From Betaproteobacteria bacterium (lineage in GTDB: Bacteria > Pseudomonadota > Gammaproteobacteria > Burkholderiales > Methylophilaceae), in contig VGIC01000001.1 in the NCBI GenBank assembly GCA_016867975.1, forward strand, positions 1-64,000: 64,000 bases of DNA. Direction: 5' to 3'. Within the stretch, counting starts at the first letter, position 1. Each line of letters opens with the position of its first letter. A program made the position numbers and the translations under genes. Positions 26 to 63,287 of this stretch are shown one piece after another. The notes beneath the pieces are model-generated. The model saw only the letters and a program-made list of their open reading frames with translations. It was not told the DNA's origin and ran no database searches.

Positions 26-365
26 GCCAATCTCCTTGCTGATATTGAAAGATACCTTTGCCAAACCACTTCTTATGGGATGAATCACCGCATTGTGCAG
101 TTTTTTGGTTACGGCATAACCTTAAGGTAGCCTGCCGCAACTACGTTGTGCGAATTCGCAACCCCGCATATATGCCGCATACTATATGCTCCGACTAACC
201 TAAAGGAAGTCTACGCTGAAACTAAAGCTTTCCCGGCACCTGACATTCCGTCACAACCGACTTGATGCGCTTCAGCCTCTAGCGAGGTTGGGGCGCCCCG
301 TTCGGGTGTGCGCATCGTGCTTCATCCACAATAAGACACTTTTGCAAAATGTCTTTGAGAATGCA
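26..365. other. 340-bp non-coding stretch with repeat copy
   Basis: No convincing gene is present. The stretch holds the RBS of the leftward gene, a partial copy of the dispersed repeat near 133-188, a GCATAT...ATATGC inverted repeat inside that copy, and a GC-rich palindrome (GGGGCGCCCC) near 290-299. The segment at about 310-345, read on the minus strand, resembles 62846-62865 (both contain CTTATTGTGGAT), possibly a further short shared element. Confidence 0.5.
133..188 (+). repeat. Dispersed repeat, partial copy A
   Basis: This stretch matches the left half of the repeat found intact at 38963-39093 (reverse complement). Shared blocks include CGTTG.GCG, TCGCAACC and ATGCCGCATACTAT. The right half (the part ending in GAAGTGTCCTTAA in the other copies) is not recognisable here, so this is a decayed or half-length copy. 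Boundaries are approximate. Confidence 0.6.
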
Positions 366-25869: not shown

Positions 25870-25941
25870 GCATTCGGCACCCGGTTAATTCTGTTCATCA
25901 TAACAAACAAGTAAGGGAGCTACACTCCTTCTTTTCCTACC

Positions 25942-25990
25942 CTAGAAACCGCAGTTAAACACGTTAAGTGTGCGGTTTTCTGGTGTTTGG
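25942..25990. repeat. Hairpin repeat, copy 1
   Basis: An AAACCGCA / TGCGGTTT hairpin follows CCTAG. The first 25 bases differ by one base from those at 43438-43462, and the pattern TGCGG...TTT..GG continues for the full about 50 bases. Here it lies downstream of ResC and may act as a terminator. Confidence 0.75.
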
Positions 25991-26150
25991 AAAGCACGAT
26001 GAGGCAGCGTGTGCCCCTGCTGCAACGAAGAGAATGCAACCAGACATCTCAAAACCGTGTCATCGATGTGAAAGCGTTTTCACTTGTTAGGTGAGTTGAG
26101 TTTAAACAAAAATGTTAAATGTTCACCAGTGGTTACAAGTCATTGCGTAT

Positions 26151-26345
26151 TTAACTGCGGTCTTTAGAGTTAATGATTGCCGTAATGTCCCACTCGCAAC
26201 CTCCACACCCGGAGACTGCACCAGTCCACCTTGAAATGGCCTCTAAATCCATCCCTTGCGATGACAATTCTTGAATGCAGGCGCGCGTAGTACCTGTGCA
26301 AACACATATGACATCCTCGGCAGGATTTTGGTTGCCCTCTGTCAC
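26151..26345 (-). CDS. BFD-type [2Fe-2S] ferredoxin
   Basis: The 64-residue protein has the bacterioferritin-associated ferredoxin layout: C-x-C (ICVCTGTT, about 14-21) and a distal C-x-x-C (GCGGCEW, about 47-53), the four ligands of one [2Fe-2S] cluster. BFD proteins release iron from bacterioferritin or serve as redox domains. It starts at GTG nine bases beyond the ftsX stop and may be read through from the ftsYEX operon. No bacterioferritin gene is in the window. Confidence 0.85.
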   Translation of the reverse strand: MTEGNQNPAEDVICVCTGTTRACIQELSSQGMDLEAISRWTGAVSGCGGCEWDITAIINSKDRS

Positions 26346-38921: not shown

Positions 38922-38962
38922 GCGGTTGATTTACAATCGTGCAATTATACCTGATGCATCTG

Positions 38963-39093
38963 CCACCTGAATTAAGGACACTTCTATAAATACAGAGTTT
39001 GAGATGCAACACAAGGCGCACGGAACGCAGGAACCTAGATAGTATGCGGCATGCAGCGAGGTTGCGAGTACCGCGCAACGCGGTAATGCGCTC
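38963..39093 (-). repeat. Dispersed repeat, full copy B
   Basis: This is the most complete copy. On the minus strand it runs from GCGCATTACC through CGTTGCGCGG, CTCGCAACCTCGCTG, CCGCATACTATCT and GCGCCTTGTG to GAAGTGTCCTTAAT. A seven-base hairpin (TACCGCG CAA CGCGGTA, 39069-39085) sits at one end. It occupies most of the gap between divergent purU and ispH, so ispH expression must start in or beside it. Confidence 0.75.
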
Positions 39094-39136
39094 AAAAAAT
39101 ATTTATTGAAATACCCCTAAATTGAGATTTTGATGA

Positions 39137-42466: not shown

Positions 42467-43432
42467 TTATTCGGTGGCTAGACTATCTTCTTTAGTAAAC
42501 GTCCAAGTCCTAGTGATACTTAAAATATCAACCTCGTTACGTATATCTTCAGGAAAGCGTGCATAGGGGGCACCCAACTCTACAATGTGTTTGGCTGCTT
42601 CGTCTAGCACCTTATGTCCTGAACTACGGTTGACCTCGATTCCTTCGATACTACCATCTTCCCTGATTGAGACCGTTAACTGCAGTTGGCCGTAGAGCTT
42701 AAGGCTTTTTGCTGCTTCCGGATAGTTTAAATTGCCGATTCTTTCCACTTTCTGCCGCCATGCTTCTACATACATGGCGTAGCGGTATTCTTTGGTGCGT
42801 CCTCCTACAAATTTACGTTTAGGGCGCTTTTGATATTCTTCTTGTTGTTTAGAAATTTGCGCTTCTAATCGCTCCATCTGTAAGGCCATGGAGGTCAGAT
42901 TATCCAAATCAAGTTTCTTAGGCGTGGCTTGATGATTCAGTTCAGCAGCTTGTGAGGCGATCTTTTTTGTAGGTTCGGACTCTAGCTTCCTGTCAGCGTT
43001 GACCTGCGTCATCAGCGCCTGCACTTGTTGCTCCAGTTCCACAACGTGCTTTTCTTCTTTAGTTTGATCAGTTGCTTTGGCAGTCTCTCGAGTCTTAACT
43101 TCCTGTTTTAGTGTGAGTTCAGATTTTTGTTCTTTTAATGCGGGCAATGCGGTCTTCATCTTGAGGTCTTTATCCGTATTGCCACCACGGTCCAGATTGG
43201 ACTGCGCATGCAAATCGGCATTCTCAGGTTTGGCAAGCGTTTTTGAATTTACCAGCACGACCTCCAATACTGGCAAGTAGTCGCGTAATTTTCTCAGTTC
43301 AGGTTGGAATTGAATGCTCAAGATAATGGCGTGAAAGAAAATCGAGCACAAAATCGCTATGGTCATCACGCTCAATGTTTTTAATTGAGCATTTAACCTC
43401 ATCACACACTGGGATAGCTTCAATGGCATCAA
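42467..43432 (-). CDS. TonB-like energy transducer
   Basis: The 321-residue protein has one N-terminal membrane helix (about 22-40), a long charged linker rich in Lys, Glu and Gln with a coiled-coil section (about 130-205), and a C-terminal TonB domain (YPEAAKSLKLYGQLQLTVSI...G.IEGIEVNRSSGHKVLDEAA). The linker is coiled-coil rather than the usual Pro-rich type. It would energise outer-membrane receptors with ExbBD, which are not in the window. It ends 20 bases before the ferredoxin gene. Confidence 0.85.
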   Translation of the reverse strand: MMPLKLSQCVMRLNAQLKTLSVMTIAILCSIFFHAIILSIQFQPELRKLRDYLPVLEVVLVNSKTLAKPENADLHAQSNLDRGGNTDKDLKMKTALPALKEQKSELTLKQEVKTRETAKATDQTKEEKHVVELEQQVQALMTQVNADRKLESEPTKKIASQAAELNHQATPKKLDLDNLTSMALQMERLEAQISKQQEEYQKRPKRKFVGGRTKEYRYAMYVEAWRQKVERIGNLNYPEAAKSLKLYGQLQLTVSIREDGSIEGIEVNRSSGHKVLDEAAKHIVELGAPYARFPEDIRNEVDILSITRTWTFTKEDSLATE

Positions 43433-43437
43433 TTTAA

Positions 43438-43490
43438 CCTAGGAACCGCAGTTAAACACGTTGGGTATGCGGGGTTTTTGGGTGAGTTGG
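43438..43490. repeat. Hairpin repeat, copy 2, overlapping the mpl 3' end
   Basis: CCTAGGAACCGCAGTTAAACACGTT matches 25942-25966 with one difference. The right part is slightly longer and changed. The mpl stop codon (TTA at 43452-43454) and the codons for its last about 12 residues fall inside it. Confidence 0.75.
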
Positions 43491-44981
43491 ATTTAATGCA
43501 TCCAGTAGTTTCTGATGAATCCCGCCAAACCCGCCGTTGCTCATCACCAATACGTGGTCACCAGCCTGTGCAATATCTCGAATAGCTACCACCAGTTGAT
43601 TCAAGTCATCATGTACCTGAGCTTTTTCTTGCAATGGTGCTAACGCCTCTGCGGCATCCCATCCCAGATTAGGCTGATAACAAAATACTAGATCGGCTAC
43701 TTTTAGACTCGTGGGTAATGCGCTTTTCATGACGCCTAGTTTCATGGTATTAGAGCGCGGTTCCAATACGGCCAGAATACGAGCGTCGCCCACTTTAGCA
43801 CGCAAGCCAGCAATTGTGGTTTCAATCGCGGTAGGGTGGTGCGCGAAATCATCGTAAACTGTCACACCATTGACCACGCCACGTACTTCCATACGGCGTT
43901 TCACATTTTTGAACTCCGTCAGGGCTGCAATGCTCACGTCAACCGCAACACCCGCATGCCGTGCAGCAGCAATACTGGCCAGCGCATTCATTCGGTTATG
44001 CTCACCAAGCAAACCCCATGCTACACGCCCTTGAGTTTTCCCCTGATACACGACATCGAAGCCACCATCCCCTAAAGCATAGGCGGCCTGCCAGTCATCA
44101 TCCGTTCCGAACTTTTCCACTGGAGTCCAACATCCCTGATTAATCACCCGTTGCAGACTATGCTCTTTACCGTTCGTGACCACCAAACCTTGTTGTGGAA
44201 CGGTACGCACCAAATGATGGAACTGCTTTTCAATGGTCCCAAGGTTTTCAAAAATATCAGCGTGGTCGAATTCCAGATTATTCAGCACTGCAGTACGCGG
44301 ACGGTAATGCACGAACTTGGAGCGCTTATCGAAGAAGGCAGTGTCATATTCGTCTGCCTCAATCACAAAAAAAGGCGAGCAAAAATCATCTTCTGGTGCG
44401 CTACTGCGTTGCGCGGTGCGCGTAACCTCGCTGTACTCATTTGTACTATCTCGGCTACTGTGCTCCGTACGCCTTGTATCGCATGCAGAATCTGGATTTT
44501 TGTTGAAGTGACTATCTTTAGGTGAGATTTGCGGCAAACGTGCTGAAACCGAAAAATTCTCGGGCACGCCACCAATTAAAAACCCAGGAGCTAGCCCAGC
44601 ATATTCCAAAATCCACGCCAGCATGGAGCTGGTCGTTGTCTTGCCATGCGTACCAGCTACAGCGAGCACCCACTTACCTTGCAACACATTCTCTGCCAAC
44701 CATTGCGGACCAGAAATATACGGTAGCCCACGGTTCAGGATTTCTTCCATCAGCGGATTACCACGAGATACCACATTGCCAATGACGTAAATATCTGGGT
44801 TGAGCTGAGTTTGTTCGGGTGAAAAACCTTCGATTAGCGCTATGCCTTGCGCTTCTAACTGCGTACTCATGGGCGGATAAACATTGGCATCACAACCTGT
44901 GACTTTATGCCCCGCCTGTTTCGCCAGCACGGCAATGCCACCCATAAACGTGCCGCAAATACCTAAAATGTGAATGTGCAT
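43452..44981 (-). CDS. mpl: Mpl, UDP-MurNAc:tripeptide ligase, with in-frame repeat insertion
   Basis: Mpl reattaches recycled L-Ala-gamma-D-Glu-mDAP to UDP-MurNAc. Mur-ligase features are intact: HILGICGTFMGG at the N terminus, ATP loop GTHGKTTTSS (111-120), NNLEFDHADIF, HHPTAIETTI, and the end GGFGGIHQKLLDAL. At 509 residues it is about 50 longer than usual. The excess is residues about 150-200, between NFSVSARL and SPFFVIEADEYD, which are contiguous in relatives. This segment (44382-44534) is low in hydrophobics and coincides with repeat copy C. The last residues (PTHPKTPHTQRV) come from a second repeat. Reading frame and catalytic motifs are kept, so activity is plausible. Confidence 0.93.
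   Translation of the reverse strand: MHIHILGICGTFMGGIAVLAKQAGHKVTGCDANVYPPMSTQLEAQGIALIEGFSPEQTQLNPDIYVIGNVVSRGNPLMEEILNRGLPYISGPQWLAENVLQGKWVLAVAGTHGKTTTSSMLAWILEYAGLAPGFLIGGVPENFSVSARLPQISPKDSHFNKNPDSACDTRRTEHSSRDSTNEYSEVTRTAQRSSAPEDDFCSPFFVIEADEYDTAFFDKRSKFVHYRPRTAVLNNLEFDHADIFENLGTIEKQFHHLVRTVPQQGLVVTNGKEHSLQRVINQGCWTPVEKFGTDDDWQAAYALGDGGFDVVYQGKTQGRVAWGLLGEHNRMNALASIAAARHAGVAVDVSIAALTEFKNVKRRMEVRGVVNGVTVYDDFAHHPTAIETTIAGLRAKVGDARILAVLEPRSNTMKLGVMKSALPTSLKVADLVFCYQPNLGWDAAEALAPLQEKAQVHDDLNQLVVAIRDIAQAGDHVLVMSNGGFGGIHQKLLDALNPTHPKTPHTQRV
44395..44525 (+). repeat. Dispersed repeat, copy C, inside mpl
   Basis: Aligned with copy B (reverse complement) it shares GCGTTGCGCGGT, AACCTCGCTG, TACTATCT, GCCTTGT and GAAGTG in the same order and spacing. 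It lies within the in-frame insertion of mpl and has no stop codon in the mpl frame. Confidence 0.75.
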
Positions 44982-62727: not shown

Positions 62728-62971
62728 GCGAGTTTTTTATGTTTCTTCTACCAAGCACTGACATCACATGTTGGATAGATTGGTTAAAACCGTATTTTAC
62801 GGAAATAACCAGTCGCTTAGCAAACCCTAATATGGTTTGAGCGCTTTGAAGAAGTGCTTATTGTGGATAAGGCAACATCCGCACGGAGTGTCTCCACCCT
62901 AAACGATGGTTAGGATATCCGAATTTTTCGCTAGTAAATGGAGATTTAAAATCAATAGGTTAAGTACGTAA

Positions 62972-63214
62972 ATGGCCAAGCCATATAGACCATGGCAGCG
63001 TTGCATTAATGAAAATATCAATGAATTGCTATGCCAGTACTTGCCAAAAAGGGGAGTCTTGAGCGTATACGGCCAGGAAGATTTAGATGCGATTGCGTGT
63101 AAACTGAATATCAGGCCACGCAAATCGTTAGGTTTCAAATGCCCTGTGGAGTTGTTTACGCCAGACGCGTTTGATTTTAGGCTACATTATGCTATTTTTG
63201 CACTTCAACCTTGA
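62972..63214 (+). pseudogene. IS30-family transposase remnant (C-terminal end)
   Basis: The 80 residues read KPYRPWQRCINENINELL, QEDLDAIACKLNIRPRKSLGF and KCPVELF, matching the last about 80 residues of IS30-family transposases, including the N-E catalytic context (NENINELL, where intact proteins have the catalytic Glu in NENTNGL). A stop codon lies immediately upstream in frame and no N-terminal part or left end was found. It is therefore a decayed fragment, between thiS and folE2. Confidence 0.85.
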
Positions 63215-63287
63215 AACCGCCGCATATATTCCACGGACGTGTGCGGGTAATATTGCACAAACTCTGCATTTATTGAAGTGTCCTTAA
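63207..63287 (+). repeat. Dispersed repeat, copy D
   Basis: The right end is nearly identical to copy B: CAAACTCTGCATTTATTGAAG and GTGTCCTTAA match with two changes. The left part (GCCGCATA.TAT) is weaker and may partly belong to the IS30 remnant. The folE2 stop codon (TTA at 63284-63286) is inside the conserved CCTTAA end. Confidence 0.65.

Follow-up and report, generated by a model that had tools for sequence, protein, structure and literature searches.

A MITE in frame within mpl of a Methylophilaceae bacterium, in a loop that holds unrelated palindromic repeats in some relatives

The mpl gene of this Methylophilaceae bacterium raises the question of how a dispersed, mostly intergenic repeat came to lie in frame within the coding sequence of a conserved ligase. 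The window, that is, the whole stretch of DNA that was analyzed, comprises 64,000 nucleotides, and within it mpl occupies 43452..44981 on the minus strand as an ORF of 509 amino acids that encodes UDP-N-acetylmuramate:L-alanyl-gamma-D-glutamyl-meso-diaminopimelate ligase, which takes part in cell-wall recycling. The ORF matches the NCBIfam mpl profile TIGR01081 above its cut-off (746 bits vs 389). A sequence search identifies 3eag and 3hn7 as PDB relatives of the product, and a fold search with a model of the protein returns the Mpl structures 3hn7 and 3eag as the top solved structures. The region of interest is the loop that runs from SARL to FFVIEADEYD (44373..44534, minus strand), which has 54 residues in this protein. 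A presence/absence comparison among related mpl genes, as proposed in an earlier sequence-only reading of this DNA, finds that most loops (67 of the 84 read in the family) have 13 residues and thus carry no insert, which rules out a naturally long loop common to the family; the loop of the Neisseria Mpl structure 3eag is also of the 13-residue kind. Comparison with insert-free loops places the captured element at 44379..44507 on the minus strand, corresponding to about codons 159-201, or 43 residues encoded by one long hairpin, with a net gain of 41 codons over insert-free relatives. The sequence-only reading had set the interruption at Mpl residues ∼150-200, which stands with these refined limits, and the profile score agrees with its statement that the frame and the rest of the ligase are intact despite the insert.

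The insert is related to a repeat that lies between genes elsewhere in the window. When 44382-44534 is reverse-complemented and aligned locally with 38955-39125, the score is 76, a value reached by none of 2000 dinucleotide shuffles (mean 17.2, maximum 28). Among eight genomic copies, the one in L007 matches the insert best, with a score of 79 over a core match at 44395..44477 (minus strand), and none of 400 shuffles is as good. Chance similarity is ruled out by both shuffle tests, and the claim that a dispersed, mostly intergenic repeat sits in frame inside mpl is borne out. A search of the host genome with the intergenic copy also recovers the mpl piece (E 7e-11).

We infer that the insert is translated as part of Mpl. 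In an AlphaFold2 model with a mean pLDDT of 79.4, residues 157-199 have values below 50; the other ten-residue blocks lie mostly at 72-96, with three at 66-67 and the last block at 38. On the basis of this model, the insert is read as a disordered loop of the enzyme. The lack of a stop codon in the insert is uninformative, since the neutral chance of this outcome is ∼0.4. A further repeat, around ACCGCAGTTAAACACGTT, is present at 25938-25986, 26146-26181 and 43425-43483, and one of its copies overlaps the 3′ end of mpl.

The host genome (G000; 1.56 Mb in 44 contigs, 92.7% complete) contains many copies of the repeat found in mpl. The genome-wide search that the sequence-only reading had suggested returns 66 pieces similar to the intergenic copy (E ≤10), one of which is the mpl piece, where a piece is not equivalent to a whole element; 55 copy clusters were counted in the stretches of this genome that were examined. 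The copies share a common core of ∼90 bp and have ends of at least three kinds, GAGACCTTTGCAAAA (type A), GGAAACACTGATTAAAT (type B) and GGGCACTTCTATAAATAC (type C). The intergenic copy at 38976..39116 (plus strand, 141 bp) has type-C ends, with the left terminal inverted repeat at 38976..38995 (plus strand) and a degenerate right terminal inverted repeat at 39097..39116 (minus strand). Fifteen copies have paired type-C ends when up to three mismatches per end are allowed, and nine of these are flanked by an exact 4-bp duplication, compared with a chance level of 0.43% (97 of 22500 shifted comparisons); the six copies without an exact duplication include the intergenic copy. For types A and B together, an exact duplication of 3-5 bp is found in three of ten copies, and for type A a duplication of 3 bp is found in six of eight copies if the ends are taken one base longer. 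Type-C copies span 129-343 bp and are too short to encode a transposase. The repeat is therefore a MITE, as defined by its inverted ends, target duplications, short length and dispersal without a transposase. Duplications of 4 bp recall IS5-type transposition.

A pattern search detects 40 end sites in the host genome and none with the backward-pattern control. The mpl copy is not flanked by a visible target duplication. Inspection by eye of the end sites compiled across 52 genomes revealed no parent transposase, in that no inverted end pair was seen at a transposase-sized distance. The core is present in at least 45 of 120 family genomes and in 11 of 24 genera, judged from at most seven scored candidates per genome. 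Two more copies of the family lie in the window, as located from BLAST pieces and sequence: a longer one with A-type pieces at 51..354 on the minus strand (pieces 51-185 and 308-354) and a broken one at 62852..63287, whose pieces 62852-62890 and 63258-63287 enclose foreign sequence. To the eye, the stretch between the broken arms looks like the terminal part of an IS30-type transposase. Among the MITE copies in L002-L017 and at 38976-39116, some carry further hairpins in the middle of the element.

Copies inside genes were sought only as open frames running through a copy. Five places in the host genome have at least 40 open codons on both sides of a copy: mpl itself, an antisense ORF at a gene edge in L182, two flagged places in L178 that are one spot where the folP ORF is extended at its N terminus, and an ORF in L172. 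The last (L172:1572-1955, 127 codons) consists largely of repeat sequence and is close to the folP-ORF extension of L178. At a further 19 type-C end sites, no open frame extends for 60 codons to either side of the site. On the basis of this open-frame scan, mpl is the only conserved gene with an internal copy among the host-genome copies scanned.

We compared the loop across relatives using a genus set of 52 genomes, 47 of them with Mpl, and a family set of 187 genomes, 174 of them with Mpl. Loops were read at 84 of 88 loci, and the four that could not be parsed (G123, G086, G064 and G193) have ordinary profile spans. For the remaining 90 of the 174 family genomes, loop length was gauged from no more than the extent of the profile match, among the matches listed and with G208 (two matches) left out, so that long loops may be missed there. 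The 84 loops range from 13 to 65 residues, with 67 of 13 residues, four of 18 residues and 13 that are longer, a proportion of long loops that overstates the true share because loci were picked with a preference for long spans. Among the first 30 mpl loci, that of the window included, there are 22 loops of 13 residues, three of 18 residues and five longer ones (our own, G007, G009, G001 and G033). The long loops fall into three classes with a patchy distribution. Loops termed 'ISP' occur in G000 and G075 (54 residues), G130 (36), G101 and G079 (29) and G195 (23); REP-like loops occur in G007 (36 residues), G009 and G113 (30) and, in decayed form, G001 and G033 (27); and a third kind of palindrome is found in G074 (43 residues) and G172 (65). 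The latter genome is Methylotenera sp. LF-bin-133, whose DNA is identical to L090; Methylotenera species grow on methanol or methylamine. An 18-residue loop (PQTPALAKSKQD and similar) is found in G031, G132, G003 and G028, patchily over two genera, which again suggests an exchange of loop alleles. In the bin G069 (L183), the mpl gene carries a frameshift downstream of its loop.

The inserts of the other classes also correspond to dispersed repeats. With the mpl copy included in each case, matching pieces in the respective genomes number eight in G007, 12 in G009, 22 in LF-bin-133, 13 in G074 and 11 in G075. A dispersed repeat is thereby demonstrated in the genome itself for six of the 13 long loops (G000, G075, G007, G009, G074 and G172), and the other seven are classed by resemblance or common flanks; the label 'REP-like' for G007, G009 and G113 denotes a general resemblance. 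The three kinds of insert are mutually unrelated, with all cross-kind scores within those of shuffled sequences (the lowest count, for G007 against LF-bin-133, is 14 of 300 shuffles), and kinship of the G007, G074 and LF-bin-133 inserts with the MITE was rejected on the same grounds. The G074 and LF-bin-133 inserts are weakly alike (score 27, 0/300 shuffles) and were counted as one kind. The G113 insert matches that of G007 (78, 0/300 shuffles), and the decayed G001 loop has a weak likeness to the G007 and G113 inserts (22 and 23, 1/300 each). The Mpl loop is thus a recurrent capture site for repeats of three mutually unrelated kinds. An insert in L081, from a betaproteobacterium of another group, was considered as a fourth kind and rejected, as it matches the G074 palindrome (36, 0/300 shuffles); its repeat is represented by two pieces in its own genome, the mpl copy included.

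Repeats of these other kinds were also seen within further genes. L148 (G001) has a REP-like palindrome at ∼1501-1581, in frame within a protein with a ResIII domain, and L265 (G074) has a PTPTLPLNGEG-type palindrome at ∼1501-1538 that is in frame within the leucyl-tRNA synthetase editing domain. A second copy of the L081 repeat, at ∼1501-1532 of L167 from the same genome, also lies within a long open frame.

A tree of 83 loop-free Mpl bodies (G069 left out) requires at least 14 changes of loop class when the 18-residue class is counted, with four changes for ISP and four as well for the REP-like class. Sister pairs with different loops are G075/G026, G074/G016, G113/G168 and G033/G073. Judged from sequence, the G000 insert is the product of the same event as the G075 insert. 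The two loops are identical at 129 of 162 nucleotides, differing by 33 substitutions with no indel and no stop, and they share the same extra middle base and the flank changes PQISPKDS...DDFCSP. A separate gain of the same MITE at the same spot by each lineage is very improbable in view of these common features. The loop has been struck by other repeats and core copies exist elsewhere in G075, but neither genome has a near copy among the matches listed (at most 72.5 bits vs 161 bits), and type-C ends are absent from G075 when up to one mismatch is allowed. An assembly chimera or binning artefact might be imagined, given the 44 contigs of the host genome and the origin of LF-bin-133 and other named relatives as metagenome bins, yet it is scarcely credible for an insert that occurs in two genomes with 33 substitutions and neither an indel nor a stop. 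In its body, the G075 gene shares 91% identity with insert-free G026 and 75.5% with G000 (327 differences in 1335 bases). Because the insert recurs in the congener G075 while its sister G026 lacks it, the loop allele was probably exchanged between species, which we prefer to several clean losses. Inheritance of the insert by G000 and G075 from a shared ancestor, with such losses and no exchange, would agree with the placement of both in a well-supported clade of seven rows (support 98/92) and with the fact that no recombination tract is seen beyond the loop in the G075 gene. We nevertheless regard it as improbable, because the other five rows (G066, G014, G063, G068 and the G075 sister G026) have 13-residue loops without a scar and loops with the same flanks occur in other genera too (G130, G195, G101 and G079). 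As the insert is common to G075 and has apparently been exchanged, it need not have transposed within the lineage of the window. In the loops of G101, G079 and G195 the repeat is unrecognizable, with 272-380 of 400 shuffles matching as well, so that it is the common flanks that link them to the insertion allele; the G130 loop retains a borderline trace (5/400 shuffles). These shorter loops of the ISP class may have arisen from the insert by internal deletion or may equally represent the pre-insertion allele.

The mpl insert folds into a hairpin of ∼129 nt with a z score of -4.4, and none of 200 shuffles is as stable. This hairpin has been kept. Of 46 pairs in the G000 loop, 45 are still paired in G075, five of them through changes on both sides, whereas random-substitution controls with the same transition share give averages of 11.1 broken and 0.93 compensatory pairs (P <1e-4 and 0.001, respectively). 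One explanation is that the insert is maintained for a role of the hairpin in mpl mRNA, such as RNase processing, pausing or stability, and that the protein puts up with it. The fold stability and the kept pairing would be expected under this explanation, but we consider it doubtful: 67 of 84 relatives do without the insert, the reverse comparison, which starts from the G075 fold, finds five of 46 pairs disrupted in G000 (P 0.01), and the intergenic copy at 38976-39116 forms a weaker hairpin, only slightly better than shuffled sequences (z -1.54, 13/200 shuffles as good). Moreover, template switching during replication can correct palindromes and may keep them self-complementary without selection. 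With regard to the protein, the G075-G026 comparison of the mpl body (dN 0.012, dS 0.46) indicates purifying selection on the gene. The 33 substitutions between the G000 and G075 loops change 15 residues, compared with 21 expected from neutral simulation (P 0.005-0.006). At third positions the loop has diverged less than the body (15/54 vs 237/445, Fisher 0.0005), a difference compatible with recent exchange, although the constraint on the hairpin confounds it. The residue test and the third-position contrast prove neither protein selection nor recent exchange, because the kept hairpin may explain both.

In-frame repeats within proteins are already established. Rickettsia palindromic elements (RPEs) are described as palindromic repeats of ∼105-150 bp in frame within genes for conserved proteins (PMC2229807, PMC10969869), with 44 integrations in genes of R. 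conorii (PMC10969869). The sequence-only reading had drawn a parallel with these elements, which holds as an analogy and fails as a statement of membership. The mpl insert, also a palindromic repeat in frame in a gene for a conserved protein, appears to work like an RPE but is not one; the hosts differ, and the host genome has one copy in a conserved gene among those scanned. Inverted ends, short duplications, a length without room for a transposase and many copies are features shared with known MITEs (Correia/NEMIS, ERIC, RU elements and QMITE1/2), whereas in the repeat described here a single core is associated with three or more kinds of ends. RU elements form in-frame repeats in proteins (PMC2759123), MITEs overlap genes in Coxiella (PMC5896051), and REPs (GTAG/CGTC) lie within repair genes, with different REPs at about the same recB site in X. 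campestris and X. oryzae (PMC3733652). The recB case is the only precedent for same-site capture that we came across. It resembles the present one in having repeats in conserved genes and different ones at one site, but the Mpl loop holds a MITE and two other palindrome kinds in several genera, with signs of exchange, and its ∼129-nt hairpin is longer than a REP unit of 20-40 bp with a GTAG or CGTC end. Within the open-licence literature, we found no title or abstract on repeats in mpl or on this MITE in Methylophilaceae, and no report of three unrelated kinds in one loop together with signs of exchange and a kept coding hairpin.

We consider it likely that a MITE inserted into a tolerant Mpl loop, that unrelated repeats did likewise, and that allele exchange and wear followed. 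An ancestor from which some Methylophilaceae descend would have acquired an element of ∼125-140 bp in the loop that separates SARL from FFVIEADEYD; a transposase acting in trans and generating 4-bp duplications probably moved it there. Since the loop apparently tolerates very different peptides, an insertion that preserved the ORF would have survived as a disordered stretch of 43 residues in an enzyme that stayed functional. The same tolerance would have let unrelated palindromic repeats settle there in other species. Homologous recombination within the flanks, which are conserved, would later have carried loop alleles from one species to another, and in-frame deletions would have worn them down. 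A bolder reading, which we put forward tentatively and hold to be somewhat less than an even prospect, is that of a family-wide docking loop in which unrelated repeats are captured repeatedly and passed between species, with the palindrome conserved as hairpin and protein at once.

These loops provide a natural set of variants of one enzyme, some insert-free and others with unrelated inserts that add 10 to 52 residues. Several of the variants occur in sister-species pairs, so that the enzymes themselves could be used to ask if peptides derived from repeats bring a cost, a benefit or neither. The pairing that has been kept within coding sequence could also serve to separate selection on mRNA structure from the correction of palindromes during replication.
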